This document shows positions 2 through 38,590 of a stretch of 64,000 nucleotides of DNA, piece by piece. This DNA comes from Lineus longissimus (lineage: Eukaryota > Nemertea > Pilidiophora > Heteronemertea > Lineidae), in the NCBI RefSeq assembly GCF_910592395.1, contig NC_088309.1:5396501-5460500 (forward strand), in the 5' to 3' direction. The position numbers and the translations under genes are program-made. The notes beneath the pieces are model-generated. The model was given only the letters and a program-made list of their open reading frames with translations. It did not search any database and had not been told where the DNA came from. The number at the start of each line of letters is the position of its first letter. The stretch's first letter is position 1.

Positions 2-3000
2 ACTACAATGGAGCCAACAACCACTCCTAAAGCTTCAACTACTATGGAACCAGCGACTACTGAAGAAGCTGCAATTACAACGAAGCCAACAACCACTCCT
101 AAAGCTGCAACTACAACGGAACCATTGACTACTCAAGAACCTGCAACTACAACGGAGCCAAGAACTCCTACAATGGTGCCAACAACCACTCCTAAAGCTT
201 CAACTGCTATGGAACCAGCCACTACTCAAGAAGCAGCAACTACAATTGAGCTAACAACCACTCCTAAAGCTTCAACTACTATAGAACCAGCGACTACTCA
301 AGAAGCTGTAGCTACAATGAAGCCAACAACCACTCCTAAAGCTTCAACTACTATAGAACAAGCGACTACTCAAGAAGCCGCATCTACAATGGAGCCAACA
401 ACCACTCCTGAAGCTTCAACTACTATGGAACCAGTGACTACTCAAGAAGCTGCAACTACAACGGAGCCAACAACCACTCCCAAAGCTGCAACTACAATGG
501 AGCCAGCAACTACTCCTAAAGGATCAACTGCTGTGGAACCAGCGACTACTCAAGAAGCTGCAACTACAATGGAGCCAACAACCACTCCTATAGCTTCAAC
601 TACTATGGAACCAGCGACTACTGAAGAAGCTGCAATTACAACGAAGCCAACAACCACTCCTAAAGCTGCAACTACAACGGAACCATTGACTACTCAAGAA
701 CCTGCAACTACAACGGAGCCAAGAACTACTACAATGGTGCCAACAACCACTCCTAAAGGATCAACTGCTGTGGAACCAGCGACTACTCAAGAAGCTGCAA
801 CTACAATGGAGCCAACAACCACTCCTAAAGTTTCAACTACTATGGAACCAGCGACTACTGAAGAAGCTGCAATTACAACGAAGCCAACAACCACTCCTAA
901 AGCTGCAACTACAACGGAACCATTGACTACTCAAGAACCTGCAACTACAACGGAGCCAAGAACTACTACAATGGTGCCAACAACCACTCCTAAAGCTTCA
1001 ACTGCTATGGAACCAGCCACTACTCAAGAAGCAGCAACTACAATTGAGCTAACAACCACTCCTAAAGCTTCATCCACTATGGAACCAGCGACTACTCAAG
1101 TATATGCATCTACAATGGAGCCAACAACCACTCCTGAAGCTTCAACTACTATGGAACCAGTGACTACTCAAGAAGCTGCAACTACAGTAGAGCCAACAAC
1201 CACTCCCAAAGCTGCAACTACAATGGAGCCAACAACTACTCCTAAAGGATCAACTGCTGTGGAACCAGCGACTACTCAAGAAGCTGCAACTACAATGGAG
1301 CCAACAACCACTCCTAAAGCTTCAACTACTATGGAACCAGCGACTACTGAAGAAGCTGCAATTACAGCGGAGCCAACAACCACTCCTAAAGCTTCAACTA
1401 CTATGGAACCAGTGACTACTCAAGAAGCTGCATCTACAGTGGAGCCTACAACCACCTCTAAAGCTGCATCTACAATGGAGCCAACAACCACTTCTAAAGC
1501 TTCATCTACTATGGAACCAGCGACTACTCAAGAAGCTGCATCTACAATGGAGCCAATAACCACTTCGAAAGCTTCAACTACTTTGGAACCAGCGACTACT
1601 CAAGAAGCTTTATCTTCAATGGAGCCAACAACCACTCAGAAAGCTGCGACTTCTATAGAACCAGCAACTACTCCTAAAGCATCAAGTACCATGGAGCCGA
1701 CCACTTCTCCTGTAGCTGCAACTTCTTTAGAGCAAACAACCATTCTTGAAGTTTCAAGTACTATGGAACCAGCGACTTCTATGGAAACCAGAACCACTCC
1801 TAAAGCTGCAACAACAATCGAACCATTAACTACTCCTCCAGCTGCAACTACTATCGAAACAACAACTACTTCTAAAGCTTCAACTAAAATGGAGCCGACG
1901 ACTACTATAACACCAACAACTTATCCTGAAGCTGCAAGTACGATGGAGCCAACGACCAAATCTGATCCTGGAACTTCTATGAAACCAACAACTACTTCTG
2001 AAGCTGCAACTACGATGGAATCGACATTTACTGCTGAAGTTTCAGGTACAATTATGCCAACAACTACTCCTGACGTTGCAATTACTAAGGAAGTAACAGC
2101 TACCCCTGAAGCTTCAACTACAATAGAGGATACAATCGTTCCTGAAATTGCATCTACGATGGAACCATTATCTACTCGTGAAGCTGCAACTACATTGGAA
2201 CCAAAATCTACTCCTTTAGCTTCGACTTCAGCGGAGCCAACAATTTCTTTCGAAGCATCAACTACTGTAGAACCAGCAACTACTCCTAAAGCTTCAACTA
2301 CTATGGAACCAACAACTACCCCTGAAGTTGCAACTTCTATGGAACCAACAACCATTCCGAAAGCAGTAACTACAGTGGACCCAACAACTTTTGATGATGC
2401 TACAACTACGATGGACCCAGGAACCACACTTAAAGCTGCTACTACTATGGAACCAACAACTACTCCTGAAGCTGCAACTACTTTGGAACCTTCACCTACT
2501 CCTGAAGCTGCAACTACCATGGAACCAACTATGGAACCAACTACTTTTGAAGCAGCAACTACTATGGGAGCAACAATGACTGCTGACGCTGCAACTACTG
2601 TGGAACTTACGCCTACTCCTGAAATAACAACTACTATGGGAGCAACAACGAATCCTGAAATTTTAACTACTATCCAGCCAACAACCATTCCGAAAGCAGC
2701 AACTACAGTGGAACCAACAACTTTTCCTGATGCTGCAACTACAACAGACCCAGCAACCACTGCTAAAGCTGCTACTACTATGGCACCAACAACTGCTCCT
2801 AAAGCTGCAAGTTCTATTGAACCAACGACTACCCCTGAAGTAGCAACTACTATGGAACCTACACCTACTCGTGAAGCAGCAACTACTATGGAACAATCAA
2901 CTGCTCCAACTGCTGCAATGACAAAGGAAACAACAACTAATTCTGAAGCTGAAACTACAATGGAGCCAGCAACCACTCCTAAAGCTGCAACTACTATGGA

Positions 3001-3395
3001 ACCAACGACTACTCCTGAAGCAGCAACTACTATGGAACCAACGACTACTCCTGAAGTAGCAACTACTATGGAACCTACACCTACTCCAGAAACAGCAACT
3101 ACTATGGAACCAACGACTACTCCTGAAGTAGCAACTACTATGGAACCTACACCTACTCCTGAAGCAGCAACTACTATGAAACAATCAACTGCTTTTACAG
3201 CTGCAAATACAAAGGAAACAAGAACTACTTCTGAAGCTGCAACTACAGTGGAACCAACAACCACTTATGATGCTACATCAACTGTGGAGCCTAAAACCAC
3301 TCCCGAAGCTGCAGTGTCTACTGAAGGAGAGATAGCCACAACTGAAGTACCAACCACTGCTGGCTGTCCCACCCTATATCCTCCAATAGAAAATG
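2..3395 (+). CDS. Mucin-like Thr/Pro repeat exon (5'-partial)
   Basis: The reading frame is open from base 2. It encodes about 1,130 residues of imperfect 12-residue repeats of the form [12 protein letters not shown], with variants such as [12 protein letters not shown] and TTTPKAST. The composition is Thr/Ser/Pro/Ala/Glu with almost no hydrophobic residues, as in O-glycosylated mucin domains. Larger blocks have been copied: the block with [19 protein letters not shown] and [10 protein letters not shown] occurs near 60-190, 620-750 and 855-985. Repeats become more diverged from about 1440 onward. The last residues leave the repeat ([12 protein letters not shown], with one Cys). The donor at 3395/3396 (gtgttg) is weak, but it gives phase 1, which the next exon needs, and the preceding AAT G matches the ends of the linker exons further along. 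The long - strand frames across it are shadows of this composition. Confidence 0.8.
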
Positions 3396-6300
3396 GTGTT
3401 GACCAGTGTATGTTGATAATTCTTTTTGAAAGTTGTTTGTATTCTTTCATAGGACTAACGTTTTAGACGGGTTGAAGTTGGCATTAATATTTTTCTTGTC
3501 GTCGTTCCTAATATAAGTCATAATTTTGCCAATAGATATTTTTAGCAGCCAACTTTTATATTTCATATTTAAGTTAATGTGATTAATGATTATAGTGAAC
3601 GTTAGGGATGAGTGCACCGGCGGAATCGTATCTTTGAGGTAAACTACTTCATGTATGAAATGTTGAAAATCTGGGCTAGCGCCTCCTCTACAACCTTCCA
3701 TCACCTTCATCTAATATATTTCCCTGATTCGTGTTTTCAGCTGACGACATTGGTAATACTATTATACCCGGGTTTTTAGCACCCAAAGGTCACAGAATTA
3801 CCGTACTTCACACGATCCCGGCTCCATTTGATGGCTATGTCTGCAGCTTCTCGGCCTATTTCCAAGACTCAGGTGCAGTCAAACTTCAGATTTGGAGGGA
3901 CTCGCCAGCGGATGGTCATCGAGCTTTTCAACTGATAGGTCAAAGGGAGTATGTACCCGATAGTTCGGGGCCTATTACGGTACGTTGCACTTTAGAATAG
4001 GCTATCTACCTACTCACAAGAGTGAGTTGCAGATAGTCTGTAGTTACAGATAGTCTGTACTCGAAGACAAGCATTCAAAATCACTGGTTCGAACACATCC
4101 GATAAGATGTTGCTCTTATACATTATCGAATGAATCCAATATCTAAAAAAAAAATTTCGTTCTTAGACGTGTACACCAATACGTTCAATTATTTTCTAAT
4201 ACTTTCGACTTCGCTGATGATATTGGCATTGATACATGACAGACATCTCAATATCAACGATTATTGCTTTCTAGGTTTCGTTGACGGATTGGTACAACCC
4301 ACTGAGTTTGAAAGCAGGGGACTATCTCGGATTCGCCAACTTGGATAAGAACAAAGGCAGCATTACAGCCGCAATTGGCTTTGTCGACACTCTTCAGACA
4401 ACCAACTTTGATGCTTTTCCCGAAGTAAATGATGTTTTGGAAGTGAAGAGCATACTGACGTCATACCTCTTTTCACTCTCTGCAACCCTCGCAACTCATC
4501 CGGAATTATGTAAGTTTATACGCTATGAGTCGCTGATGGTAAATCTGGCCAGTAGGCAAGGAAGAATACATTAAACTGTGCACATTAGTCGCGCAAAAAC
4601 TATAAATTTGGCTCTTTAGCTCCTGCCTGTTGTTCCTCTTTAAAAAATAAGGAACTTGATAGTCTACGAATCGAGTGAATCAACTAAGCTACAACTAGAA
4701 TACTGTTTGACTGTTTGAAATAATGAATTTGTGTTTTAACAATTTCTCACACTCTTTAACCTATTCAATGCCATGGATCAAATGAGAAATATACGAGGGT
4801 AATAAGCCTACAACAATGTATGGCATTTTGTTGTCAGTATTATCAATAGTATGACATTATCGATTCTTTAATTCTTAATATCATATGATGAACTTACACA
4901 ATTTTTAAGTTCATTGTTCATTTTATTATTTATCTTCAGGTCCAAATTATGTTGCGCCTACAAATCCACCATGTTCAGCAGGTATGTCTGTGTTAATTAC
5001 ACATGGTTTAGTCTCTCGATTAGTCTATCAACAGCACAGCCGGTTTTGATCTTAAATCACTCTTCATCGTCAGGAAATCGCAAAACAAAAAACCTGTGCA
5101 AATGGAGTTCAGACGAATATATTTTTTTCCACTCATTCCTTTCCTGACAGTGCAAGTCACTGGTTTCTATAATCTCCAGAATGAACAAAGAGGCCTAGAG
5201 TTATATCAAACACTGTTCTCATGCTACTATACCATCTCAGCAAAAACACATACGTTAATCTCTTAATCAATTTCAGAAACAACGACTCCACAAACAGCAG
5301 CTCCAGGTACTACACCGAAGTCTGCTACAACGATTCCTTCTGATGTGAGCACTGATACTCAGATAACTACTGCTGCAGGAACAACACCGAAGACAGCTAC
5401 AACGAGTACAGCGGATGTAACCTCGTTTGCAAAGACTACAACAGATCAAGGTTCTACACCAAAATCTGCTACAACGGGTCCTTCTGATGTGACCACTGAT
5501 GCTCAGACAACTGCTGCTACAGGAACAACACCAGAGCCAGCTACAACGACGCTATCGGATGTTACGACCACGGTCGCCAAGACAACAGCAGCTCCAGGTA
5601 CTACACCTAAGTCTGCTACAACGTTTCCTTCTGATGTGACCACTGATGCTCAGTCAACTACTGCTGCAGGAACAACACCGAAGACAGCTACAACGAATAC
5701 ATCGGATGTAACCTCGTTTGCAAAGACTACAACAGATCAAGGTTCTACACCAAAATCTGCTACAACGGCTTCTTCTGATGTGACCACTGATGCTCAGACA
5801 ACTGCTGCTGCAGAAACAACACCAGATCCAGCTACAACGCCGCTATCGGATGTAACAACGGTCGCCAAGACAACAGCAGCTCCAGGTACTACACCCAAGT
5901 CTGTTACAACGGCTCCATCTGATCTGACCACTGAGACAACTGCTGCTGCAGAAACAACACCAGAGTCAGCTGCAACGACGCTATCGGATGTAACAACGGT
6001 CACCAAGACAACAGGAGCTCCAGGTACTACAGCCAAGTCTGCTACAACGGCTTCTTCTGATGTGACCACTGATGCTCAGACAACTGCTGCTGCAGAAACA
6101 ACACCAGAGACAGCTACAATTACGCCATCGGATGTAACCACGGGCGCCAAGACAACAGCAGCTCCAGGTACTACAGCCAAGTCTGCTACAACGGCTCCTT
6201 CTGATCTGACCACTGAGACAACTGCTGCTGCAGAAACATCACCAGAGCCAGCTACAACGACGCTATCGGATGTAACAACGGTCGCCAAGACAACAGCAGC

Positions 6301-9300
6301 TCCAGGTACTACACCCAAGTCTGCTACAACGGCTCCATCTGATCTGACCACTGAGACAACTGCTGCTGCAGAAACAACACCAGAGTCAGCTTCAACGACG
6401 CTATCGGATGTAACAACGGTCGCCAAGACAACAGCAGCTCCAGGTACTACAGCCAAGTCTGCTACAACGGCTTCTTCTGATGTGACCACTGATACTCAGA
6501 CAACTGCTGCTGCAGAAACAACACCAGAGCAAGCTACAACGACGCTATCGGATGTAACAACGGTCGCCAAGACAACAGCAGCTCCAGGTACTACAGCCAA
6601 GTCTGCTACAACGGCTTCTTCTGATCTGACCACTGATGCTAAGACAACTGCTGCAGAAACAACACCAGAGCCAGCTACAACGACACCATCGGATGTTACC
6701 ACGGTCGCAAAGACAACAGCAGCTCCAGGTACTACACCTAAGTCTGCTACAACGGCTCCATCTGATCTGACCACTGAGACAACTGCTGCTGCAGAAACAA
6801 CACCAGAGCCAGCTACATCGACACCATCGGATGTTACCACGGTCGCAAAGACAACAGCAGCTCCAGGTACTACACCCAAATCGGCTACAATGGCTCCTTC
6901 TGATGTGACCACTGATGCTCAGACAACTGCTGCGCCAGAAACAACACCAAAGCCAGCTTCAACGACGCTATCGGATGTAACAACGGTCGCCAAGACAACA
7001 GCAGCTCCAGGTACTACAGCCAAGTCTGCTACAACGGCTTCTTCTGATGTGACCACTGATGCTCAGACAACTGCTGCTGCAGAAACAACACCAGAGCAAG
7101 CTACAACGACGCTATCGGATGTAACAACGGTCGCCAAGACAACAGCAGCTCCAGGTACTACAGCCAAGTCTGCTACAACGGCTTCTTCTGATGTGACCAC
7201 TGATGCTCAGATAACTACTGCTGCAGAAACAACACCAGAGCCAGCTACAACGACACCATCGGATGTTACCACGGTCGCAAAGACAACAGCAGCTCCAGGT
7301 ACTACACCTAAGTCTGCTACAACGGCTCCATCTGATCTGACCACTGAGACAACTGCTGCTGCAGAAACAACACTAGAGCCAGCTACATCGACACCATCGG
7401 ATGTTACCACGGTTGCAAAGACAACAGCAGCTCCAGGTACTACACCCAAATCGGCTACAATGGCTCCTTCTGATGTGACCACTGATGCTCAGACAACTGC
7501 AGCGCCAGAAACAACACCAAAGCCAGCTACAACGACGCTGGCGGATGTAACCACGGTCGCCAAGACAACAGCAGCTCCAGGTACTACACCTAAGTCTGAT
7601 ACAACGGCTCCATCTGATCTGACCACTGAGACAACTGCTGCTGCAGAAACAACACCAGAGCCAGCAACAACGACACCATCGGATGTTACCACGGTCGTAA
7701 AGACAACAGCAGCTCCAGGTACTACACCCAAATCTGCTACAACGGCTCCTTCTGATGTGGCCACTGATGCTCAGACAACTGCTGCGCCAGAAACAACACC
7801 AGAGCCAGCTACAACGACGCTATCGGATGTAACAACGGTCGCCAAGACAACAGCAGCTCCAGGTACTACACCCAAGTCTGCTACAACGGCTCCATCTGAT
7901 CTGACCACTGAGACAACTGCTGCTGCAGAAACAACACCAGAGTCAGCTGCAACGACGCTATCGGATGTAACAACGGTCACCAAGACAACAGGAGCTCCAG
8001 GTACTACAGCCAAGTCTGCTACAACGGCTTCTTCTGATGTGACCACTGATGCTCAGACAACTGCTGCTGCAGAAACAACACAAGAGACAGCTACAATCAC
8101 GCCATCGGATGTAACCACGGTCGCCAAGACAACAGCAGCTCCAGGTACTACACCTAAGTCTGATACAACGGCTCCATCTGATCTGACCACTGAGACAACT
8201 GCTGCTGCAGAAACAACACCAGAGCCAGCAACAACGACACCATCGGATGTTACCACGGTCGTAAAGACAACAGCAGCTCCAGGTACTACACCCAAATCTG
8301 CTACAACGGCTCCTTCTGATGTGGCCACTGATGCTCAGACAACTGCTGCGCCAGAAACAACACCAGAGCCAGCTACAACGACGCTATCGGATGTAACAAC
8401 GGTCGCCAAGACAACAGCAGCTCCAGGTACTACACCCAAGTCTGCTACAACGGCTCCATCTGATCTGACCACTGAGACAACTGCTGCTGCAGAAACAACA
8501 CCAGAGTCAGCTGCAACGACGCTATCGGATGTAACAACGGTCACCAAGACAACAGGAGCTCCAGGTACTACAGCCAAGTCTGCTACAACGGCTTCTTCTG
8601 ATGTGACCACTGATGCTCAGACAACTGCTGCTGCAGAAACAACACAAGAGACAGCTACAATCACGCCATCGGATGTAACCACGGTCGTCAAGACAACAGC
8701 AGCTCCAGGTACTACAGCCAAGTCTGCTACAACAGCTTCTTCTGATCTGACCACTGAGACAACTGCTGCTGCAGAAACATCACCAGAGTCAGCTGCAACG
8801 ACGCTATCGGGTGTAACAACGGTCGCCAAGACAACAGCAGCTCCAGGTACTACACCAAAGTCTGCTACAACGGCTCCATCTGATCTGACCACTGAGACAA
8901 CTGCTGCTGCAGAAACAACACAAGAGTCAGCTGCAACGACGCTATCGGATGTAACAACGGTCGCCAAGACAACAGCAGCTCCAGGTACTACACCCAAGTC
9001 TGCTACAACGGCTTCTTCTGATGTGACCACTGATGCTCAGACAACTGCTGCTGCAAAAACAACACCAGAGCAAGCTGCAACGACGCTATCGGATGTAACA
9101 ACGGTCGCCAAGACAACAGCAGCTCCAGGTACTACAGCCAAGTCTGCTACAACGGCTTCTTCTGATGTGACCACTGGTGCTCAGACAACTGCTGCTGCAG
9201 AAACAACACCAGAGCAAGCTACAACGACGCTATCGGATGTAACAACGGTCGCCAAGACAACAGCAGCTCCAGTTACTACAGCCAAGTCTGCTACAACGGC

Positions 9301-21300: not shown

Positions 21301-24300
21301 TCGTGATTCATTCATGTTTGCTGTTGTACAGCTTGCTTATTTTGAAATTGAAGTACCACTTTTCTACTTATTCGCTTCCAGAAACCTTCGGTAATCCTCT
21401 TGTTGATGGTAAGCCCGATGACGACCACAGGTTCGTGCACATCCTGCAGGGCTACATCCCTCCCGCAGGAACAGTAAAGACGTTTAATGCCTACTTCAAA
21501 AGAACTACAACAGTTACGATTCAGGTTTACCGACCGACTGGCACACTGAACCAATATAACGTTGTAGCAGAGGAGGCCATCATACCAGAATCTACAGGCA
21601 TCAGCTTGGTAAGCAAAACCCATCGCAATTGATGAGGTTTATAATTTAAGTCTATTGTATTCAGAAGAAAGTCTGATAATTGTGATACAACTTAAATTCT
21701 TAAATCCAACGAAAAATATCCATGGGGACGGAGGGTAATCTATTTCGAAGGTCTCTTAATGATCTCCCCCATCATACCTATGATCTACCGTTATGAATTA
21801 CATCTCACGTGTCCCCAACCTCTTATTTAAAGATCTACCCAAAAACCAAGATTGAGCTTCGAGACGGTGACAGAATTGGCTTCATCACAAAAGATTTCGG
21901 AACAATCGCTTACAATAATGGCGATGATGTCGTATCCGTAACTGACCTTGGTTCTGCCGTGGCGCCAGCGCCAGGCGATACCATCCTGGTACCAGATGTC
22001 GTCAATAGGACTTTCTCCCTTTCTGTAACAGTGGAATCATTTAACCCGGCCGAAAGCAGTAAGTTTACATCTTGGCACAGCCTGTTCACCACATTTGACA
22101 GACATTCCCACAATTCAATTTCAAGTATCGATACTAATTCGTATTTAAACTAGTTATCTCTTCAAACTGTGCCTAATCATTTTAGCTTGTCAGATGTAGT
22201 TGGGTAAGGAGCTGCCATTCACTTGATGGCTCTTATTTGGTAACCTTTAACTTGATATACACTGGTGTATCTTTCATGTGAGTGGTTTTAAGTTGTCGAA
22301 GAAGTTATCGCTTTTTTATTCTAGACATCTATTTCAACAATTATTTTCAGTTTCAAACAATGGTGGCAACCTACCTATTCAAGATGGATCAGCTGGATTA
22401 CCCTACAACAACACAATCTACATCATGGTGGAACAACCACTGGCTGCAGGTCGTATGGTGTCCCTGCAAGTGTATGCCAAATCAACGTCAACCATCGAGT
22501 TTCAGATTTGGAAACTTTCTGGAGAAGTGTCGGATTATAACAGTCAGAAATTTATACTCGAAAGTGTGTTTGAGTGGTCGCCTCCATCTGCGGGATATCA
22601 CAGGGTAAATATAGCTTTTACATATCTCTTGCCAGTTCACATTCAACAACACAAAATTGTCACTTGGCGGTGATCACCTATCTTGGGTCAAATAACAGAA
22701 TTGGGTTTTACCCTTAATAGTTTCCCTATGTAAAAAAACGAGCAATATGTGAAAAGTAAAAGACTGAAGGTTTTTTAATCACTTTTCTTATTCAGATTGT
22801 ATTCCAAAGCCCACTGGCGCTAGATGGCGGCGAATTCCTTGGCTTTATGGTCAAAGGTAGCAATCACTTTGCCACGACCAACCAGGTTGGCAATGTTCTT
22901 GGTGTACTGGAACTCGGGTCCTCTTCTCTTCCTGATTTTGGAGAAACCATTACAGTCTCAGAGTGGGTGGAAAAGAGAGTATCACTGGCACCTGACGTCC
23001 GTAAGTTATTCCTTATTTTTTGTTTACCAATCACAATGCAAAAGGTTTTTGGTAGGATCAAAGTTCTGTCTCACTTGCTCGATGAGACTTATTTTGGGCG
23101 ACAGATACTCAGTCAAGCTATCCTTGGTTTTTCTCCGGAATTGTTGGGATTCGAAGCTACTGCAGATCTCATGACAAGTGATGGTGGCAGAAAATGACTA
23201 CATCCTGCACCTCGCGAGAGTAATTGATTTTGGAGAAACCATTACAATCTCAGAGTGGGTGGAAAAGAGAGTATCACTGGCGCCTGATGTCCGTAAGTTA
23301 TTCCTTAATTTTTGTTTACCATTCACGATGTGAAAGGTATAAAACTGAAGATCTGTTGATTAGAACGAGGCAAACAAGGCAACATTAATGCACCTATAGT
23401 GTTTTTATGGGAGTGAACAATCTAACTTAAACCTGATCTAGGTTTAAAATTTGTCGATTTTCTGAATTTCAGTGATCGATGATCCTCAGCCCACGAAAGC
23501 TACTCCATCAGAAAATGGTGAGTTATTCCGTCAGGCATACTTTTGATATTACAGTTCAGCAAAATACCAGATGTCCGTCAGCGTGGTTGACTTCAGCTGT
23601 AGAGGATTCTAATATAGTGTGTTTATTGCATGTGGCAGCCTCACTAATATTCATATTTTCTGAATGTTTGGAGAAGTTAAAACGTCTGTCAGCCTGATTG
23701 TCATAGTAATATGTCATAATACCTACTTTGCAGTTATTGGTTATCCATCTGTAGACGGTTCAGCAGGCCCCTCTGATCCGCGCACATACGTCATGACGTC
23801 TGAGCCTGTCCAACAACAAGCCCGGCTTGTGAACTTCAAGTTATTCGCCAAGGACACTCGCCCAGTTTACCTACAGATCTGGAGAAAGGCGAACGCAAAT
23901 GATGCCTTTGATGGCACTTACACAGTTGTTCACGCCCAGCAGTACGTACCCGCACAGACAGGACAGGAGCTCGTGGTGAGTAGCCCCCTTTTGCTTGAAA
24001 AAATTGATTCAGAAATACAGTAATTGTTAGAAAACCATCGGATGATGCCGGGATTTTTAAAATGTTACAGAAACCGTTTAAAGTTTAATCCTACGACAAC
24101 GAATTGTTCTCAAGAAGCAAAGCATTTCCCTTACATATAATCCAAATGCACCTACAACTAAGCCTCCTCCTCCTTCAGCTGATAATCAAACATTTTAAAA
24201 CTTTTTTCCTGCAGATCCCGCCATCTTTAGAAGTCATCCTGGAGAGCGGCGACTTGATTGGGTTCACCTTAACTGGTGCTGGAACCATCGCAGTCAACCA

Positions 24301-27300
24301 TGTCTCGCCATCTGATGGCTACAGATATGTCTACAGAGCTGAAGACATGGTACCTACTGCTGGTCAGGAGTATAGCATACCCGTGTTGACGGCAACAGAC
24401 AGGTTTTCCTATTCAATAGAAACAGGTAACCTATCGCTTACTAATTTATAAGTTACAGCTACGCATCTTCTCTTTAGCTATATAGAATTCCATTAAAAAT
24501 GTGAATGTCCTTAATACATGTAGATCAGAGAGGTGACCGCTATAAGACGTATCACTGTATGTATGTACAAATAAGATTACATCATGCACTTCAGGATTAT
24601 GTTGACTCGTGAGATTTTAGTCGAAATTACAAAAAGGGGGACTAAGTTTCACGTCCTTGGTCTCATTGACCAGTGATCAGGAACAACCTTCGTTCCAACT
24701 ACATTTTTGTAATTCATCAATTCTCTCCCATTTTCAGAAAAAATCATTGACACGTCAGTCTGTGCTGCTGCTGCTAATGACACGGGTAAGTCAAGAAGCA
24801 AATAATTTAACAACAAGCATTAAGGTTACTTGGTATTGCAGTTCGTGCAGCTTCCCTTCCTACCTAAGATGGCTAGGAAACAGTAGTTTCTATGTTAATC
24901 AAAGCACAGGCAAAACGATGAGAAGGTATCGGCAAAGGGGAAATTACCCTACGACTTTTGCCTCTAAGGGTCTTTGTAGTTGTGAACTTTATCAAGCTGG
25001 GTGCTCCGCTTTGGAAACAATTTTATTTGTTACTTTTCTCCACGTTTACTTTATATCATCATTTGTTTTTCAGTTGGAATCGTTGGTAATCCTGTCGTCC
25101 CTGGAAGAACATCAGCCAAGGAATCAGTTGTCTTCATCCTGTATGGTCTTCCAATTGAAGAACCATGCGGTGTCGTCTGCTACTTTGACGTCCATTTTGC
25201 CGAAGTCGGCACGGCACATTTACAGATCTGGCGACGTGATGTCGACAACGCGGAACCTGGTGTTTACACCTTAAAGGATGAGGTCGAGTACGAGTCAAAC
25301 CGGGCCAATGTAGCTCACAGGGTAAGCATGCTGTGTTCTTTCACTGCAAAAAAATTTTTCATCGTGAACTTATTCTTTTTTGCGCAGTTTGCTGGGTGGT
25401 AGTTTAAACCACGCTTCCACCTGTGCTGTGAGCTACTGCTCATTCCCGCGGACGAGATCCTTATTAAGCGTGATCCTGGTCAGAAGGATCCAGTTTTATT
25501 TGAAACAAATACCACAATTTTTCATTTTGTATCCTATTTGTTTCTTCAGGTGTGGGTAGCAAATCGTACCGAACCGATGCGATTTTCTCAAGGCGACTAC
25601 ATCGGTATCGCCTCGGAAGGCAAGGACGTCATAGCTTATAACTTTGCCCCCAATGTCCCAGGAAGTCAAACGCTCTACAGGAAGATAGCAGATGGCGAAC
25701 ATCTCCAAATAGATTCTAACTTCGACATCAATATTCGACTCCTTGTCTACAAGTTTTCTATACAAGTCAAGTACGCCAGTCGGGTGGAGCTGTGTGAGTA
25801 GACGATCATCGACTTGAAAGATTGGGTCATGCCTGCGACGCCCATAAAAGAGTTGGGTCTTGCCAATGACGTCCACATTTACTGTCTTACTCGGCACAAA
25901 GAAATTTAGGCCTCCGTCTTGCCAATGACGTTGTTCTCTCCTGTCTTACTAGGTACAAAATCGTTGAGGAACCCACTCGCTATGCGGAAATAAAATCATT
26001 GTTAACCCGAAGTGAGCCTAGCCAAAATGAAAATTATCATCTAAATCATGATTTAGATGGTATTTAATCGCTATCACAAAATAAAACTGCAAGACACGGG
26101 TTACTCTGACCATCATGTAAGACATGTAACATCTGATTTTTTTGTTATAGTCGCTGTTACTATTGCAATTTCCTTTCATTTAGGTTATGATCAGTCAGCA
26201 ACTACCACCGCACCATCGCCTACATCTACTGCCGCACCATCACCTACATCAACTGCCGCACCCGTGGAGACAACAGCCGCTACCAATCCAGAGACCACCG
26301 CTCTGCCAACAACAACAGTCACCACACCAGCGCCGACTAAAGAAGCAACCAAAGCACCTACTACCGAAGCAGTGACAACCGCACCGGGTAAATGTCAATC
26401 CCTTATCTTTTCTTTTGAAGAACCTGCAGTCTTTGTTGATGTGTTTGTGCCTAATATCTCTCTCTTCCGACCTTGAATCCTGTGTACGTTCCTTGATATT
26501 TCCCAATAATTTCGTCTGTCATGTCACTTACATGTATCTCGTGTTGACTGGTCGTTCATGTGAATTGATGCATTGATGCATTGGAATATTTTCGGCCTTG
26601 CTTTTTAAAGCGATTCCGTGAGCTACTGTAACCAATGCCTTTTCATCTTTCCTTTTTCAGGAGCAGAAGAATTTGGTACACCACTGGACGCACCCAAGGA
26701 ACCGGGTCTGGATGGCAATAACACGTTCATCATGGATGCAAACCTGACAACTGGTTATCTGTACAAGTTCAGCGTCTTCCTCAACACAACTGATCCTGTA
26801 GTCTTCCAGATCTTCCGACCCGACCCGAATGATCCCAGTGTCCTGAATGTCGTATACGAGATTGGACCGTTCCAGGCTCCTTATGCTCCAGGCTACTTTG
26901 ATGTAAGTACGGTTCAACCGATACGTTCATGACGTTTGTGTTAACTTTGAAAAGAGCTTATAATGTAACGAAAGATGTAACTAGGAAAGTGTGTTTTTTC
27001 TGGTTTGATTGATGAATTGGTCGATGTGGTTATTTGAAATGTGTCTTCTTCAGATCTACGCCGAGTTGCCAAGCCCGTCCGCCCGAAGGCGCCGCCGATC
27101 TACAGCAGGTTTCCTTGTACTGCCGGGAGACAAGATAGGTTTCACCGTGCTCGGCCGCAATCCTATGGCATCTACGCCCGGGACGGGATCAAACGTCCTC
27201 ATTGTTCCTGCAGGCAGTGGTTCTTCCGTGAGCACGGCAGGAGTTACCCCATCGAGTGGAAGCTACGTCCTTAATGTTAAGATTAGTAAGTGTGCTTTAT

Positions 27301-30300
27301 ACTTTCCTTTGAATTTTCAGAGGCTCTCTGCTTCTGGCCCGTCTTCTTATTTTTTGTTGCCTGCTTTTTTATTTGTATATGAAACGAAAGGAATGATCCA
27401 AGAGACGCCTTGAGAATTCGATTTTGACATTAAACTTCCTCTACTCTTATCTGCCGTAGGTCGAAATGGCCATGGGGTCGATATTAGGTAACTTCAGAAG
27501 AATGCATTTTCATTTCCTCTTTTTTCCACAGGTCCAGTTCCGTTGCCAATTCCTCAAACTACTAAACAACCGGTTGTGACGACGTCAGCAGCAACCCAAC
27601 CACCCGAAGCGACAACACCATGGCCTGGACAGACCACAACAAAGCTGACAACGTCTGTGATAATACAGACTTCAGCTTCCGTGACAACCACAGAAGTACC
27701 TGTGACTACCACAGAAGTACCTGTGACTACTGACAGACCATCATCAACAACAGTGGTGACCATGCCAACAACAACTGACTGGGATGGTAAGTGATGAATT
27801 TCCCCTTGTACACACCAAGATCCGTTGGTTTGATCGCTGAAACCGCTTGAAACACGCTACCCCCACACGCCTATCAACTGTTACGCTGTGCATGAAACTT
27901 GCCGCAGTATATATTGGTGAACAAGTTACTGTCAGAAAAATATATAAAGGTTGCAGAGAACATTTTTTGGAATAACGTTAGTATTGCATCTTCTCTATTT
28001 GTAACTTGTGTTAGAACTTGAAATACCTTTGCGTACCTTTTATCATACCCTCACACAAATGATATCATTCCAGTAAAGAGAACAGAAATTCACAAACAGT
28101 CCACACAATGATTTCCTAGATGAATACGTTATTTCCTCCTTTTTCAGTCAAGAGAATAGGCAATACTGTATTTGAGGGAGGCGACGCTATCTCAGAATCA
28201 AACATGGTGCATATCTTCCGTGGTTACAGTCTGCCACCAGGCTGGGTCTTCAGGTTCGAGATGTACCTCAGTGCCACTGATCCGCTCAAGTTACAGATAT
28301 GGAGACCAAATCCAACCGAAAGCTCCGAATTCAGTCTTGTTGGCGAGATGGACTTCTTTGCCGAAGATGGTGCTGGATTGTACAGTGTAAGTATAGGACG
28401 AATGCTAGATCATCTAACAAGTATCTTTCCATTTGATACATATCCATCCACGATACCAAAACAAAATGTTCAAAGCTTGCATGTCAATAAAAACTATGGT
28501 CATTTTGATGGATCCGTCTTACTCTTTCAACAGGCATATCCAAACGAGACAGACGCAATCCAGGTGAAGAGTGGTGATAAGCTAGGCTTTGCCTTCCTCG
28601 GGAACAACCCGCTCTATGCTAGGAGGACAGGTTCTTCACTTGCTTCGGACATTGGTGTAATAGACTTGGATATAATCAGTTACCCATCCATCGGAGAGAA
28701 GACTAGCCTGACTGGTGTCTCCTTCAATGAGGAGTTCCCGCTGGCAGTGGAAATAGGTGAGCCCGTTTTCATACACCGAAGATGTTTAGATTTCTTGACA
28801 TAATGTCACAGAAAGATATCTTGCTGGTCCAAATGCATCTTCATGTAGTATTATGAGGTTCCTGGCTCACTTGTAAGATGACAAGATAAAGCCCAACTCA
28901 AAATTAGTTACCTTAGTTGAAGTTAACTTGATGAAAATCTGCATTAAGCTTATGCATGGAGAAGGTGATCAATGAGGAAAAGGAAGGGAACCTGTATGGA
29001 GAGGGAAGTTGCATCTTAAGCTATAATTTCAATAGATGATTGCTCGTTCTACTGGAATAAGTCAAGTTCCCATTTCTATTTCAGCCAAGGATTATTTACC
29101 TCCACTGACGCCAGCACCACTAACGGTGGTAACAATTGGAAACTCTATTAAGAATGGAACCCGAGGAACGGATGGGAATAGTACCTATATCCTTGATCAT
29201 GCCCTGCCCAGCGGATTTGTTTATAAGTTCAACGTCTTCCTGGAAACCACGGACCCTGTGCTCTTACAGGTGTTCAGACCACAGGGTGGCAATGAGTATA
29301 AGTTGATCAACGAAATAGAGGCAGTGGCTCTATATGGTCCTGGTGAATATAGGGTAAGTTGGAAACACATTGTACCAAGCAGATTTTTTATATCTTCTGA
29401 ACCTTTATAGCTGTTTATTTGCTTGGGGTCTAATTACAATATGTTTTCTGTTACAGATATACCCAACACCTGAAAATCCCTTTGCTGTACAGACGAATGA
29501 CAGAATAGGTTTTACCACGCTTGGCACAAATCCGATGACGTACGAGATCGTGCCTGGTACGATTGTCTACCACATGAGGCAATTCAACAGCAGGCCTCTA
29601 GTTGGAGAAACCATCTCATCCACCGGACAGGACTTCGTCTTCAAATATGCTCTTAATGCAGATATTTGTAAGTGAATACGTTTTTTGCTAGGTGTTACAT
29701 TTCAATGAAAATAATATGGCTTATTTTTATGAACTGTTGTCGATATTTCTATTGCACCACCCGAGACACCCGACAGCCTAACACCCGACTGTGAGAGTGT
29801 GCAGATTCACAACTCAAACCTGTCAGCCGTATTTGGGGAAAAAAGGCAAAGCAATGCTTTGGGTTCCTCTTTTGTATCTACCAATAAACGAATCATCTTC
29901 TTTCTTCTAGCCTCAAGCTACATTGAACCACCAATCGGGCCAATAGGACCAGCCGGACCGAATGGATCAGCCGGACCTGTCGGTGTCCAGGGAGAGCAGG
30001 GCCCGCAGGGAAGCGTCGGCGAGAGGGGTGACATTGGCCCAGATGGATCAAGGGTAAGCATCATAAGGCACATAAGTGCTATATTTGACTGGGTCAGCGC
30101 TGTTGGTTCGTTTTTCTAATGAAATGCCATTGCAGAGCTGCGCTCGTTGCTTTCATTCTTCAGGATTAGCAAGGCTGCTCCCAGATGAAATCAATTCATG
30201 ACTCCTGATGACAAACTTTCGCATCACTAGGAATTTTCCTTATAACATACTGATTATTTTCAGGGAATAACTGGCCTCCAAGGTTCTGTAGGAGACCAGG

Positions 30301-33033
30301 GTGTCAAGGGGCCGCTTGGCGCCGTCGGAATGACTGGTTCACTGGGTGGTTCTGGCCCTCAAGGTGGTGTCGGACCCGCTGGAGTGACAGGTTTGTTCGG
30401 ACCTGTTGGGCTGACTGGAGCGAACGGACCACGCGGTGTAACAGGTGCACAAGGCGTTGAAGGGTTTCTAGGTGAGTGAATTTGAATAAAAAGTTCGGAT
30501 TATCATAGTCTAGTTCTTTTCAGACAAATATTTGCTCATTTCTTTTTTCTTAAACTTCACATCAAAAGAACAAATGAGTAATACGAATTGAAGGTTGCGG
30601 GAGCACTATTTCGTGATGAGTTTGGGTTTTTCTTATCATTCACTTTGTTTATTGGCTATCTAGTCAGTTCTGCCAGTGATGATTCTTGTAAAAAAAGTGA
30701 TGATGCGGATATACTGACAACAATGCAAAATACGACCCAAAAGCATTAGTTCCTCGTCATGTTTATTTCATGGTTCATATTGCAGGGTATATTGGAATCA
30801 GTGGACCTCAAGGTGTTGCTGGGCCCGCAGGAGAAACCGGCAACCAGGGTCCTGCTGGGCCACAAGGACCGAGAGGAGTTCCAGGGGATGCAGGAATATT
30901 AGATACAAGTAAGCGCATGATCCCCTGGTTTGTAGACGTCCATTGAGTAAGAGGAAGGGAACATGTATGGAGAAGGAGGTCGTGTCCATCATCAACATAG
31001 TTCTAGGCTACTCATAGCAGTGATAGCGATCGTGCATGTATGGCTGTTATGTGTTTGCTATTACTGGTAGCCTGCCATCGTACTGTCAATGATTGGAGTG
31101 CTGTGGCCTCTTTTGCTTCAATGTATGTCAACTTAAGTTCTTCCTTTACACTTCAGTTATTGAATTCTCGTTTGGCCCTCTTTCAGCCACATCTTGCCTT
31201 GGCCGCTCTGTAAATGCATTGAATATCAAACAATATCCTCCACTTTCAGATGTCTCGTGTACTCCTGGCCGTTGTGACCACATCTGTACGGAGCTGGTTG
31301 GAGAAGTCCTGTGCTCGTGTCGTCCTGGCTCTGTCCTGCAGGCGGATGGAAAATCATGCTTAGGTAAGTTGTGATATCGTGGTATATGGTAAAAGGAACA
31401 GTTAATGGTAATAGTGCTAACGGTTTATGAATCAAATACGTTTTGCCCGATTGCATTTGCCTCACTCTTGCAAAGTTTAAGTGACTACATGTACTAGTAT
31501 AAAAGGATGATAAATTTCTCATAAGTAGTTTACCTTGTTGCTTTGTTTTAACACGCTTTTGTAATTTTTACATTTTAGATGTAAATGAGTGTCGGGCTGA
31601 TAATGGAATGTGCGAGCAGAGTTGTAGCCATGTCGCTGACCTCCCGACCTGCTCCTGTGGCGCTGGATTCAATATCTCTCTGAACGGAAAGCACTGTAAT
31701 GGTACGTAACATTTCTTTTGTAATTTAGTCAATGCAGCAAAGTCATTGCTTTTATTGAATTGTCATCTCGTTTACACTTTTCGGTTTCTCTTAGAACATG
31801 CACTGAGCAGCGTAACGAGATCTTGAAGTAAGGTGTTGAAACAGTAAAAATAAGTTGAATATCTTTGTTACATAACATTGAAAATCAATTTGCTTTGGTT
31901 CCGCTGTTTTCATGTCCCCCGACTAAAAAAGTCTTGGTTCCTCTATAGCTAAAAATAAATCTAATTGGTTAAAACGATAGGAAGTGACTATTTGGCAAGC
32001 CCGGCTTACCAAACAGCGACTTTTTCTTGTCCTGAATGGAGAGCCGAACTCATTAATATTAAAGTAAAGTCTCCAGCTCGCCAAACAGGGTAGATTTTTT
32101 ACCTGTTTGGCAAGCCCGGCTGGCCGAACAGGGTGGCTTTTTAGTGCTGTTTGGCAAGCGGCTCTCCAAACAGGACAAAAAAAGATGCCTGTTCGGAGAG
32201 CTGCTTGCCAAATAGACCCGGCCAAAACGATAATGATTTATTTGTCTTCTAGATATCAACGAGTGTTTGTACAACCCATGCCCTAACACTGATGAGGTGT
32301 GTCTCAACACCAAGGGCAGCTTCATCTGCTACAATGCCAAGGGCACGCTCACTCAAGGTGGCAGTACACAGCAGCAAACAGGTAGGCGGCAGTAAAAAAC
32401 CTTCAGCTTGATGAGAACGCTTAGGCTTGTCTGTTCCGCGTTGCCATCATATGGAAATCGGCTCAAATCGTTTTGACCACTTTGCTTGCAACTGAAACTG
32501 GCAAGAATTGCCTCTCAGACTGGTCTGGCCCGCCGAAACTCTCTTGTTGGGGGCAAGATGGAACACGCTGGAGACACGAATAGCATATAATCAACCCTTT
32601 TCGCTCGAGACACGGATAGGGTAGAATTAAACTCTTTGGGCTCAAGAAAGATATAATAAAATCAAACTTTTGGGGCTGGACATTTTTACGGGTCTCTTTT
32701 AAACCAAGATTATTTTCTTTATTCACAGATGTTGAGGCAGTTTTTGCCAACGAAAGGGTGTTCATTGCTGTGATAGCATGGCTTATCGTCCTGTCCCTTT
32801 GGTGCTTAATCATTGCCTTGTCACAAATATGTACACGCCGCACGAGAAAGGAGGCCCGCCGACGGATCGCGCAGGAGCGGATAAGACGAACGCTACAGCA
32901 GTCCTTATCCCCGCGGGCGGAGCCATCAGCGCCATCCGCTTCAAGAACTGGTCAGGACGCTGCTGCCGACTCACTGCCAGTATTCTCCGAAATTACCCTG
33001 AGATCATCATCTATACCTTCGTCTCCATTATAG
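2..33033 (+). CDS. Giant single-pass membrane mucin with tandem novel domains, collagen and EGF modules (5'-partial, about 52 exons)
   Basis: This is one gene model built by splicing. Every exon boundary listed in the sub-entries has a GT donor and an AG acceptor, and phases match throughout; the summed coding length from base 2 is 19,356 nt, divisible by three, giving about 6,451 residues to the TAG at 33031-33033. The order is mucin exon, one two-exon domain, mucin exon, seventeen more two-exon domains with Thr-rich linkers, Gly-X-Y collagen, three EGF-like modules, one hydrophobic helix and a basic tail. The inferred topology is type I: a very long O-glycosylated extracellular stalk, possibly trimerised by the collagen segment, anchored in the plasma membrane. 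The N-terminus and signal peptide lie left of the window. I do not recognise an orthologue. The main risk is that two or more adjacent genes were joined; the perfect phase agreement argues against that. Confidence 0.72.
3741..4509 (+). CDS. Novel two-exon domain, copy 1
   Basis: The exons are 3741-3979 (acceptor ttttcag, donor gtacgt) and 4275-4509 (acceptor tttctag, donor gtaagt). Phases are 1-0-1, as in every other copy. Landmarks shared with the family are IGN near the start, VKLQIWRD in the middle of the first exon, YVPDSSGP before the phase-0 intron, LKAGDYLGF early in the second exon and LFSLSATLA at the end. This is the most diverged copy, and it sits between the two mucin exons. No Pfam family is recognised; the pattern of alternating hydrophobics suggests a beta-sandwich (inference). 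Confidence 0.72.
4940..4981 (+). CDS. Short linker exon with two cysteines
   Basis: This is a 42-nt symmetric phase 1-1 exon between cttcag and gtatgt. It encodes a short Pro-rich linker ([13 protein letters not shown]) that starts with a Cys codon completed across the junction. It joins domain copy 1 to the second mucin exon in frame. The assignment rests on splice signals and phase only. Confidence 0.5.
5277..11239 (+). CDS. Giant second mucin exon, fused at its 3' end to half of domain A
   Basis: This is a 5,963-nt exon with no stop codon, from acceptor tttcag to donor gtaaga. It encodes about 1,990 residues. Nearly all are repeats of about 24 residues that alternate in two types, one containing [19 protein letters not shown] and the other [19 protein letters not shown], so the true unit is about 47 residues (141 bp). 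Thr is the dominant residue, with Ala, Pro and Ser, as expected of a densely O-glycosylated region. The region 10700-11025 is more degenerate. From about 11026 the exon runs without an intron into the first half of domain A ([16 protein letters not shown] and [10 protein letters not shown]), whose usual phase-1 intron and leading strand are missing here. The series of - strand open frames spaced 282 bp apart are shadows. Confidence 0.85.
11026..13922 (+). CDS. Domain block 0: domains A0, B0, C0 and linker
   Basis: Domain A0 is the tail of the mucin exon to 11239 plus exon 11593-11803. B0 is 11967-12193 plus 12489-12714. C0 is 13015-13268 plus 13392-13596. The linker exon is 13878-13922 (45 nt, [14 protein letters not shown]). 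Every domain starts at a phase-1 junction, is cut by a phase-0 intron after a conserved segment (ELVV in A, GISL in B, GYHR in C), and ends at a phase-1 donor. A, B and C are recognisably homologous to each other (LQIWR, IQVYRP and FQIWKL in the same position; then DLIGF, DRIGF and EFLGF). This is the founder-like block: it has the same seven-exon order as the three following blocks but has diverged more in its introns. Confidence 0.78.
14194..17111 (+). CDS. Domain block 1: domains A1, B1, C1 and linker
   Basis: Exons are A 14194-14435 and 14626-14839, B 15176-15402 and 15610-15835, C 16138-16391 and 16580-16784, and linker 17067-17111. Exon lengths are 242, 214, 227, 226, 254, 205 and 45 nt, identical in blocks 1, 2 and 3. 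Domain A begins [10 protein letters not shown] begins TFGNPLVDG, and C begins [12 protein letters not shown]. Introns are also recognisable copies of those in blocks 2 and 3, but the intron between B's exon 2 and C and the one before B carry block-specific changes. Phases are 1-0-1 for each domain and 1-1 for the linker, so adding or removing a block preserves the frame. Confidence 0.82.
17364..20209 (+). CDS. Domain block 2: domains A2, B2, C2 and linker
   Basis: Exons are A 17364-17605 and 17821-18034, B 18263-18489 and 18714-18939, C 19232-19485 and 19675-19879, and linker 20165-20209. The block is nearly identical to block 3 in exons and introns, including the intron sequence after A's first exon. 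This points to a very recent duplication or to gene conversion. Distances between block starts are 3,170 bp (block 1 to 2) and 3,119 bp (block 2 to 3). Confidence 0.82.
20483..23517 (+). CDS. Domain block 3: domains A3, B3, C3 and linker
   Basis: Exons are A 20483-20724 and 20940-21153, B 21382-21608 and 21833-22058, C 22351-22604 and 22796-23000, and linker 23473-23517. The first six exons match block 2 almost base for base. The second exon of C differs (NHFATTNQV in place of NDIATINQV), and the linker is diverged ([14 protein letters not shown]). A broken duplicate of the end of C's second exon lies in the following intron (see the separate entry), so this is the junction where the homogeneous array ends. 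Confidence 0.82.
23226..23335 (+). pseudogene. Orphan fragment of domain C second exon with its donor site
   Basis: About 75 bp repeat the last part of the C second exon, from the [12 protein letters not shown] codons through APDV, followed by the gtaagt donor and about 30 bp of intron. There is no acceptor AG with a pyrimidine tract in front, and the 5' part of the exon is missing. The intron portion (cttaatttttgtttaccatt) matches block 2 better than the adjacent block 3 copy. This suggests a crossover or conversion scar. It is unlikely to be spliced in. Confidence 0.7.
23734..24425 (+). CDS. Domain A4 (diverged last A-type copy)
   Basis: The exons are 23734-23975 and 24215-24425, with phases 1-0-1. 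It begins VIGYPSVDG and contains [28 protein letters not shown] and RFSYSIET. It resembles A0 in length (second exon 211 nt) and is clearly older than blocks 1-3. No B or C partner follows, so this end of the array is a truncated block. Confidence 0.8.
24738..24785 (+). CDS. Short linker exon
   Basis: This is a 48-nt phase 1-1 exon between ttttcag and gtaagt. It encodes [15 protein letters not shown], an Ala-rich linker with one Cys. It joins domain A4 to the next domain in frame. The evidence is splice signals and phase only. Confidence 0.5.
25074..25793 (+). CDS. Novel two-exon domain, D
   Basis: The exons are 25074-25321 and 25550-25793, phases 1-0-1. Family landmarks are [20 protein letters not shown], a closing AHR before the phase-0 intron, and [10 protein letters not shown] in the second exon. 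It differs from the others by carrying two cysteines close together ([10 protein letters not shown]), which could form a local disulfide, and it is a single-copy divergent domain. Confidence 0.72.
26184..26387 (+). CDS. Thr/Pro/Ala mucin-like linker exon
   Basis: This is a 204-nt phase 1-1 exon between a ttag acceptor and gtaaat. It encodes about 68 residues with repeated APSPTST and many TT/AT pairs, so it is a short O-glycosylation-prone spacer between domains D and E. Confidence 0.72.
26661..27285 (+). CDS. Novel two-exon domain, E, with a penta-arginine insert
   Basis: The exons are 26661-26902 and 27054-27285, phases 1-0-1. It shows [29 protein letters not shown] and YVLNVKI. The second exon contains five consecutive arginines (27084-27098, ARRRRRSTA) just before the GDKIGF strand. 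No other copy has such a basic run. It fits a proprotein-convertase recognition site (R-X-R/K-R), but cleavage is inference. Confidence 0.75.
27532..27786 (+). CDS. Thr/Val/Pro mucin-like linker exon
   Basis: This is a 255-nt phase 1-1 exon between ccacag and gtaagt. It encodes about 85 residues including a tandem TTTEVPV repeat. It is another O-glycosylation-prone spacer, between domains E and F. Confidence 0.75.
28148..28756 (+). CDS. Novel two-exon domain, F
   Basis: The exons are 28148-28386 and 28534-28756, phases 1-0-1. Landmarks are [24 protein letters not shown] at the phase-0 junction, [10 protein letters not shown] and FPLAVEI. It is similar in layout to domains E and G and diverged from A/B/C. 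Confidence 0.76.
29085..29667 (+). CDS. Novel two-exon domain, G (membrane-proximal copy)
   Basis: The exons are 29085-29353 and 29457-29667, phases 1-0-1. A short Pro-rich lead ([11 protein letters not shown]) precedes TIGNSIKNG. Further landmarks are [16 protein letters not shown] at the phase-0 junction, [10 protein letters not shown] and FVFKYAL. This is the last of the 18 copies, directly before the collagen exons. Confidence 0.76.
29911..30908 (+). CDS. Collagen triple-helix segment (three exons) with RGD
   Basis: The exons are 29911-30053, 30264-30471 and 30786-30908. They encode about 49 consecutive Gly-X-Y triplets with no interruption across both splice junctions. Proline is frequent in X/Y ([12 protein letters not shown]), as in a genuine triple helix. 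An RGD tripeptide, an integrin-recognition motif in other proteins, lies at 30024-30032 within GERGDIG. The segment probably trimerises the protein next to the membrane (inference from known transmembrane collagens). Exon lengths (143, 208 and 123 nt) are not the 54-bp units of fibrillar collagens. Confidence 0.9.
31187..32381 (+). CDS. Three EGF-like modules (third incomplete)
   Basis: The exons are 31187-31363, 31579-31701 and 32253-32381, all phase 1-1. Module 1 (SCTPGRC...CSC...SC) and module 2 (DVNEC...CSC...HC) have six cysteines each; module 2 starts with the calcium-binding DVNEC signature. Module 3 starts DINEC but shows only four cysteines before a Gln/Thr-rich stem (GGSTQQQT), so its C-terminal loop is missing. 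The first exon has a second in-frame acceptor at 31249/31250, which would shorten it to 114 nt and remove a non-EGF leader. Calcium-binding EGF modules normally stiffen extracellular stalks. Confidence 0.85.
31988..32216. repeat. Intronic foldback repeat between EGF exons 2 and 3
   Basis: The motif tttggcaagc occurs near 31991, 32105 and 32144, and in inverted orientation near 32205 (gcttgccaaa). The companion motifs ggctctcc and ggagagc, and several aaacagg/gttcgg pieces, also occur in both orientations. The result is a compact, palindromic, roughly 230-bp element inside an intron. It looks like a foldback or MITE-type insertion. Confidence 0.6.
32729..33033 (+). CDS. Last coding exon: transmembrane helix and basic cytoplasmic tail
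   Basis: Acceptor attcacag joins in phase 1 to the EGF stem. A short juxtamembrane stretch (VEAVFANER) leads into a hydrophobic helix ([21 protein letters not shown]), followed by a stop-transfer signal rich in Arg/Lys ([12 protein letters not shown]) and a tail of about 65 residues with Ser/Pro/Ala, ending at TAG 33031-33033. The positive-inside distribution gives an extracellular N-terminus. No tyrosine signalling motif or PDZ ligand is evident. Confidence 0.85.
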
Positions 33034-37085: not shown

Positions 37086-37361
37086 TTTCGTTTTGTCGCA
37101 GAAGTTGTACAGAGTTTATCCGGAAACGAAAGTGTTCACTTGAGAAAGCGAAAATGTTCGTTGCAAGGCACAGTCAAGAGTTTCTTATTCAGATAAAACT
37201 TTGAAAAGATAAACTTCTTCCTCCTTGTATAAGAAATGAACGTTAAATTACAATTCCAGGCAAATGCGAACTTAGCAAAGTCTTTTCCTTTCGTTCGTTG
37301 ATATTTCGCTAGTCTGCTTGTTGTCCAGGCTTGCAAATGCTGGCGCGAAAAATCGATGTGG

Positions 37362-37966: not shown

Positions 37967-38590
37967 ACGATGTCGGTGAGTCTTTCCCTAGAGACTGTGA
38001 CAACGCATCCTAAGCCCCAGGGCCTTTCACTCCGGTACTCAGCTCTGTGTGTCCTTTACGATGTCGGTGAGTCTTTCCCCAGAGACTGTGGCAACGCATC
38101 CTGAGCCCCAGCTCTTTCACTCGGTACTCACCTCTGTGTGTCCTTTACGATGTCGGTGAGTCTTTCCCCAGAGACTGTTGCAACGCATCCTGAGCCCCAG
38201 CCCTTTCACTCGGTACTCACCCCTGTGTGTCCTTTACGATGTCGGTGAGTCTTTCCCCAGAGACTGTGGCAACGCATCCTGAGCCCCAGCTCTTTCACTC
38301 GGTACTCACCTCTGTGTGTCCTTTACGATGTCGGTGAGTCTTTCCCCAGAGACTGTTGCAACGCATCCTGAGCCCCAGCCCTTTCACTCGGTACTCACCC
38401 CTGTGTGTCCTTTACGATGTCGGTGAGTCTTTCCCCAGAGACTGTGGCAACGCATCCTGAGCCCCAGCCCTTTCACTCGGTACTCACCTCTGTGTGTCCT
38501 TTACGATGTCGGTGAGTCTTTTTCCCAGAGACTGTTGCAACGCATCTGAGCCTCAGCCCTTTCACTCGGTACTCACCTCTGTGTGTGGAG
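37967..38590. repeat. 89-bp minisatellite, seven copies with dimeric order
   Basis: The anchor acgatgtcggtgagtcttt recurs at about 37967, 38058, 38147, 38236, 38325, 38414 and 38503. Adjacent copies alternate between gtggcaacg with agctctttc and gttgcaacg with agccctttc, giving a higher-order unit of 178 bp. The first and last copies are the most diverged. Confidence 0.9.

Follow-up and report, generated by a model that had tools for sequence, protein, structure and literature searches.

Gene structure at the locus

We analyzed a 64-kb stretch of the Lineus longissimus genome (hereafter, the window; C2:5396501-5460500, where C2 is contig NC_088309.1). Stop-to-stop frames combined with the choice of splice sites gave one reading on the + strand, which runs from base 2 to a stop codon ending at 33033, is open at its 5′ end, and comprises 52 exons and 6,434 codons (Table 1). 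The exons follow the order mucin1, domain D1, a linker, mucin2, domains D2-D18 (interrupted by short linkers and by two of Thr/Pro type), three collagen exons, three EGF exons, and a last exon carrying the transmembrane helix and tail. The initial annotation had described a phase-consistent reading with mucin repeats, 18 copies of one domain, an unbroken Gly-X-Y helix, EGF modules, and a single transmembrane helix. Within 2-33033 we recovered all of these, the unbroken Gly-X-Y run being 49 triplets long, the EGF modules numbering three, and the hydrophobic segments one; AG and GT flanked all internal boundaries, and only the phase combinations 1-0, 0-1, and 1-1 occurred. Each domain copy is encoded by two exons, A (1-0) and B (0-1), with the exception of D2. 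In the C-terminal part, Pfam matched Collagen (E = 1e-20), cEGF, FXa_inhibition, and EGF_CA.

Table 1. Features of the giant gene in the window (positions counted from the first base of the window).
Feature	Position	Strand	Remarks
mucin1 exon, 3′ part	2..3407	+	1,135 of 4,071 aa; 40% Thr+Ser and 13% Pro in window part; full exon starts C2:5387695
Domain D1	3741..4509	+	exons 3741-3979, 4275-4509
Linker exon	4940..4981	+	14 protein letters
mucin2 exon with D2 A half fused	5277..11239	+	144/282-bp repeats, ~1,900 aa; D2 A half ~11024-11239
Domain D2, B half	11593..11803	+	
Domains D3 and D4	11967..13596	+	D3 11967-12193, 12489-12714; D4 13015-13268, 13392-13596
Linker exon	13878..13922	+	sister copies 17067-17111, 20165-20209, 23473-23517
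Domains D5-D13	14194..23000	+	nine domains as three ~3.1-kb triplet repeats
Domain D14	23734..24425	+	
Linker exon	24738..24785	+	
Domain D15	25074..25793	+	
Thr/Pro-rich linker exon	26184..26387	+	
Domain D16	26661..27285	+	exons 26661-26902, 27054-27285
Polybasic RRRRR, furin-like site	27084..27098	+	near start of D16 B half; matching place in alpha and gamma
Thr/Pro-rich linker exon	27532..27786	+	
Domain D17	28148..28756	+	exons 28148-28386, 28534-28756
Domain D18	29085..29667	+	exons 29085-29353, 29457-29667
Collagen exons	29911..30908	+	29911-30053, 30264-30471, 30786-30908; 49 GXY triplets
Three EGF exons	31250..32381	+	31250-31363, 31579-31701, 32253-32381
Last exon	32729..33033	+	transmembrane helix (~32758-32820), Arg-rich tail, stop

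By inspection, D2 seemingly lacks the first ~12 domain residues, and its A half lies in frame within the 5,963-bp mucin2 exon. The fusion looks as if the repeat array had expanded into a domain copy.

The window begins within a mucin exon and covers only the 3′ half of the gene, whose start lies 32.4 kb upstream. The full gene model, here called beta, extends from an ATG at C2:5364101 to a stop at 5429533, with 99 exons, a 36,513-nt CDS, no internal stops, and AG/GT throughout; it predicts a type I membrane glycoprotein of 12,170 aa (1,274 kDa, i.e., 1.27 MDa) encoded by one metazoan gene. Upstream of the window, we found 15 further domain copies with both halves detected by HMM and a divergent first copy, U0, whose A half scored just 15.5 bits and whose B half we located by eye rather than with the HMM. 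This brings the domain copies to 34, compared with 18 visible in the window, although repeat copy number may depend on the assembly. From its N terminus, beta has a signal peptide and 16 domains, the last of which is interspersed, together with one more domain, among three Thr-rich mucin stretches (one short, two giant). There follow 17 further domains, the collagen segment of 49 triplets, three EGF modules, a single transmembrane helix, and a basic tail. As linker we accepted, in each gap between domains, the phase 1-1 exon with the highest score.

By inspection, the product of the first exon, MEKNYLAIGLLLLAGFTRNCHAITCQ, is a typical signal peptide; the signal peptide so called (MEKNYLAIGLLLLAGFTRNCHA) was the sole candidate of its kind in 5358600-5364700. 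Hydropathy over the whole beta protein exceeded 1.8 (19-residue window) in one stretch only, aa 12073-12106, which is followed by the Arg-rich tail. The protein therefore appears to be of type I, with the signal peptide and transmembrane calls based on hydropathy and inspection. The mucin1 exon encodes 4,071 aa with 41% Thr+Ser, and mucin2 has 42%. An internal donor in mucin1 (exon 5387695-5388189) had a higher splice score than the full 12,213-bp exon (16.5 vs 13.9), but we retained the full exon because its frame is open along its whole length; a transcript form without most of mucin1 is possible. The claim of a single giant type I membrane protein is well supported by sequence; the protein, which has a signal peptide and relatives with the same plan (see below), is larger than had been proposed.

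Controls on the coding reading

The original exon picks had required the phases, so we repeated the choice of splice sites with textbook consensus scores, free of phase, over the HMM hits in 5276501-5460500. In this control, which is only partly independent because it favors sites close to the ends of HMMs that were themselves trained on our exon picks in the window, phase 1 was chosen for 44 of 46 A acceptors (phase 0 for 2) and phase 0 for 46 of 46 A donors, whereas B acceptors fell in phase 0 in 41 of 46 cases (phase 1 in 2, phase 2 in 2, none in 1) and B donors in phase 1 in 36 of 46 (phase 0 in 9, phase 2 in 1). Upstream copies were included in these counts though absent from HMM training.

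The mucin1 frame contained no stops in 12,211 bp; the remaining five frames had 84-662, and 200 shuffled sequences averaged 173.6 and never fell below 137. The mucin2 frame was likewise free of stops (other frames, 30-149; shuffles, mean 78.1, minimum 56). For 20 domain pairs (40 half-pairs), dN/dS was computable in 28 half-pairs and below 0.5 in 24 of these; the four higher values were D3B/D6B (0.91), D4A/D7A (1.31), D7A/D10A (0.67), and U4A/U7A (0.65). Nine of the non-computable half-pairs were saturated at silent sites, and three had no silent change, two of these with one replacement difference.

The repeated domain

The repeated domain, of ~150 aa, had been called unrecognised, and our searches agree. 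Pfam gave only chance-level matches for the 14 of 34 copies searched, including D16-D18 (best E = 0.025, in one copy); NCBIfam gave no convincing match for ten of 34 copies (best 0.26), and neither did profile comparison with PDB sequences (best 0.71, 0.97, and none). Among 5.8 billion predicted proteins, three queries retrieved 3, 6, and 8 relatives, 16 of them distinct and 14 from JGI contigs; one such public-contig relative, P0014, shared 71% identity with D17B. The ones we inspected resemble half-domains read out of unspliced exons and presumably come from related animals.

AlphaFold models of the in-frame unspliced D17, built from alignments with half-domain rows (A5 and A7, in which some half rows were partly misplaced), were poor (mean pLDDT 49.0 and 50.5); alignments A2 and A3 (half rows misplaced) and A4 (B half only) were dropped. 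Strands were modeled with moderate confidence in the A half only, suggesting, at that level of confidence, that this half contains beta strands. A Foldseek search of PDB with the second, poor D17 model returned 239 hits at E ≤ 10 and none at E ≤ 0.001. The best match to the D17 model, an Hsp70 substrate-binding domain (E = 0.53), was set aside.

Related genes on the same chromosome

At least three relatives of beta lie on the same chromosome (C2): alpha in tandem with it, and gamma and delta 1 Mb distant. Beta is the only complete model, those of alpha, gamma, and delta being partial. Alpha, which ends ~5.5 kb upstream of the beta ATG, has a signal-peptide exon (MGNIYLSAIFLLFAGFIRHSHGQSCQ) that resembles that of beta and was the best among four candidates scanned, followed by 12 domain A halves (the first with a weak B half), a 49-triplet collagen segment, and three EGFs. 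Gamma (C2:4348269-4369570, - strand) contains a signal-peptide candidate (MAAAYLMTCLLLVGLFAYSQG), 9 domain copies (one of them joined by position to the polybasic B exon), a Thr-rich frame of 388 codons, 49 collagen triplets, and three EGFs together with a transmembrane frame. Delta (C2:4373127-4391066, + strand) has 7 domains and a transmembrane frame, besides two EGFs and a Thr-rich frame of 1,107 codons.

Two side observations concern these genes. Alpha has two candidate last exons (C2:5357247-5357491 and 5358358-5358596; L011), each with a transmembrane helix, its own tail, and a stop; these are candidates for alternative membrane anchors, or one of them for a relic. In delta, the collagen segment is broken (C2:4389810-4390004; L042-L043), while its domains, two EGFs, and transmembrane frame look open, and delta may be a pseudogene.

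Genome searches gave at least 25 matches for a D5-type query and at least 38 for a U14-type query, all listed ones being on C2. We built a tree of 60 domain copies, leaving out alpha1 and the D16-type copy of gamma. Across genes, D16 paired with alpha10 (100/100), D17 with alpha11 and gamma7 (100/99), D18 with alpha12 and gamma8 (99/90), D15 with alpha8 and gamma4-6 (98/99), and U0 with gamma1 (100/100). Given this cross-gene pairing, the copy at the N terminus and those next to the membrane look old. In the D and U arrays, by contrast, the triplets grouped by array, which points to a later expansion; alpha6 joined the U copies (98/86), as did alpha4 and alpha5 less firmly. These groupings should be read with the long branches of alpha9, gamma1, and alpha2 in mind, and 18 of the 55 inner branches were open.

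The putative collagen stalk and the polybasic site

The initial annotation had suggested that the collagen segment would trimerise the chains into a brush, which we likewise regard as something the segment may do. This idea is strengthened by the count of 49 triplets common to alpha, beta, and gamma and by the Gly positions, which are identical between alpha and beta in 49 of 49 triplets (X, 18/49; Y, 20/49). It loses some weight because Pro occupies Y in only 1 of the 49 beta triplets (it occupies X in 16) and because gamma has one Gly-to-Ser change, at triplet 28.

A search of beta for R-X-[KR]-R identified only one extracellular site, the RRRRR near the start of D16B, which the initial annotation had not mentioned; a second R-X-[KR]-R lies in the tail. 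In the corresponding exon, alpha carries RRRRR and gamma RRRRRR, with diverged flanks; the gamma copy was assigned to D16 from its position and sequence rather than from the tree. Aligned with the other copies, D16 shows additional residues where RRRRR lies, as expected for an exposed loop, which this place may well form.

Proposed mechanism and alternatives

We consider the best explanation, with a probability of roughly two in three, to be a gene for a giant type I mucin that would act through arms, a stalk, and cleavage, this most likely mechanism being inferred throughout. The mucin stretches, predicted from their composition to be O-glycosylated, would form stiff arms, possibly of micrometer length: at 0.25 nm per residue, the length per residue of mucins, ~6,000 mucin residues would extend ~1.5 micrometers. 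The folded domain arrays would space the arms and may bind ligands. Just outside the membrane, the 49-triplet segment would form a triple helix bundling three chains into a stalk of ~42 nm (147 residues; collagen rises 0.286 nm per residue). A furin-type protease would cut RRRRR within D16, between the halves, after which the split domain would hold the ectodomain through non-covalent contacts, or the ectodomain would come free; the chains would form a surface coat on an epithelium. A more specific form, which we regard as less likely than not, is that D16 serves as a furin-primed split-domain coupling in a previously undescribed animal membrane mucin family defined by a new domain: the cut megadalton arm would be held by the domain halves on the trimeric 49-triplet stalk and be releasable by force or proteolysis.

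The cleavage could have a different outcome, in which cutting at D16 sheds the ectodomain, so that the mucin-domain arm would become a soluble component of a gel and a short D17-D18-collagen-EGF stub would stay in the membrane. Shedding is in line with the shared position of the polybasic site in beta, alpha, and gamma, and furin-dependent release has been described for the membrane collagens XIII, XXIII, and XXV and for C. elegans COL-99 (PMC4678570). However, RRRRR lies inside a predicted domain near the A/B junction, not in a linker, and retention of both halves fits the site equally well; we regard shedding as possible, but short of probable.

The giant type I gene itself can be questioned in two ways. 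What we read as one gene in 2-33033 may be at least two separate genes or transcripts, such as one for the mucin and one for the domains with collagen, that are connected only by our choice of exons. Relatives do occur in tandem, the second candidate last exon of alpha ending ~5.5 kb before the beta ATG, and the introns contain 32 polyadenylation motifs (AATAAA/ATTAAA). Scanning 97 of the 98 introns, we also detected 2 signal-peptide-like exons reading from introns into coding exons. One of the latter lies in the interval 11-29 kb, at 15073, where an in-frame ATG and a hydrophobic stretch lead from the intron into D6A; ahead of D9 and D12, the equivalent frame lacks a Met at this place. On the other hand, the one hydrophobic segment above the cut-off stands at the very end of the model, domains alternate with mucin stretches, and D2A is fused in frame with the mucin2 exon, which makes separate genes improbable. 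Nor does it seem at all probable to us that the repeats are decaying or mis-assembled and do not form a working gene, even though the near-identical triplets (D8-D10 vs D11-D13) leave room for an incorrect copy number, delta has a degenerate appearance, and four dN/dS values lie at 0.65-1.31: 36.5 kb of coding sequence contains no stop, dN/dS is below 0.5 in the large majority of computable half-pairs (24/28), the C-terminal order matches in three genes, and half-domains are conserved in other public contigs.

Comparison with known proteins

Transmembrane mucins of the MUC1, MUC4, and MUC16 type have a signal peptide, arms of Thr/Ser/Pro repeats, very long exons, EGF modules in some, and one transmembrane helix. 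Beta resembles them in its large Thr/Ser/Pro repeats, its signal peptide, its one C-terminal transmembrane helix, and a possible cleavage into two subunits, but differs in its collagen segment and in the 34 copies of an undescribed domain. SEA-domain mucins retain their subunits after cleavage, and retention at D16 would resemble this. Pfam matched no SEA, NIDO, AMOP, or VWD domain in the collagen-to-tail part, in 14 of the 34 domain copies, or in the two mucin stretches of the window; the window mucin stretches gave one sub-threshold match, to MgtE_N (0.0038).

The membrane collagens XIII, XXIII, and XXV (MACITs) are described as having a membrane anchor, a Gly-X-Y ectodomain, and a furin-type site (PMC4678570). 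Beta shares a membrane anchor, Gly-X-Y repeats (49 triplets with the Pfam Collagen match at 1e-20), and a furin-type motif as a putative site. However, MACITs are type II proteins with a largely collagenous, interrupted ectodomain, whereas beta is of type I, and its 49 triplets, a small part of the protein, lie N-terminal to the transmembrane helix. A review of the echinoderm extracellular matrix (PMC10381214) describes dystroglycan as having a mucin-like stretch between globular domains and being cut into two subunits that remain together. Beta is similar in its mucin stretch amid domains and in the proposed retained cleavage, a likeness of described layout. We know of no collagen or EGF modules in dystroglycan.

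In the literature, judged by titles and the starts of abstracts, we found no fitting architecture; animal proteomes were outside this comparison, and animal databases probably hold uncharacterised predictions of such proteins. If the proposed reading is correct, the cell-surface repertoire of animals would gain both a domain family and an architecture in which a collagen stalk carries a type I membrane mucin. The stalk measures 49 triplets in three diverged paralogues, and the arms range from short Thr/Pro linkers in alpha to the 4,071-aa mucin in beta. It would become testable how repeat expansion tunes coat thickness and whether split-domain cleavage can substitute for a SEA domain.

Neighboring features

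The intron separating the halves of domain U14 contains what we take, by eye, to be a Tc1/mariner-like element (~6020-7700 of L013). On small contigs of the assembly, Rfam gave no match in six stretches drawn from C21 (1-20000), C22 (complete), and the initial 10 kb of C28, C29, and C30, and ARAGORN with its bacterial setting detected no tRNA in C21 or C22. Downstream of the giant gene, the window holds an HSP70 gene in one open frame (35181-37115, - strand; Pfam E = 2.9e-246) and, beyond its start, an 89-bp tandem array (37967-38586). Farther on are a 1,005-codon frame (45168-48185, - strand), coiled-coil-rich by eye and with no Pfam match at E ≤ 0.001, and a CUB domain (53869-54453, + strand; Pfam 2e-06).
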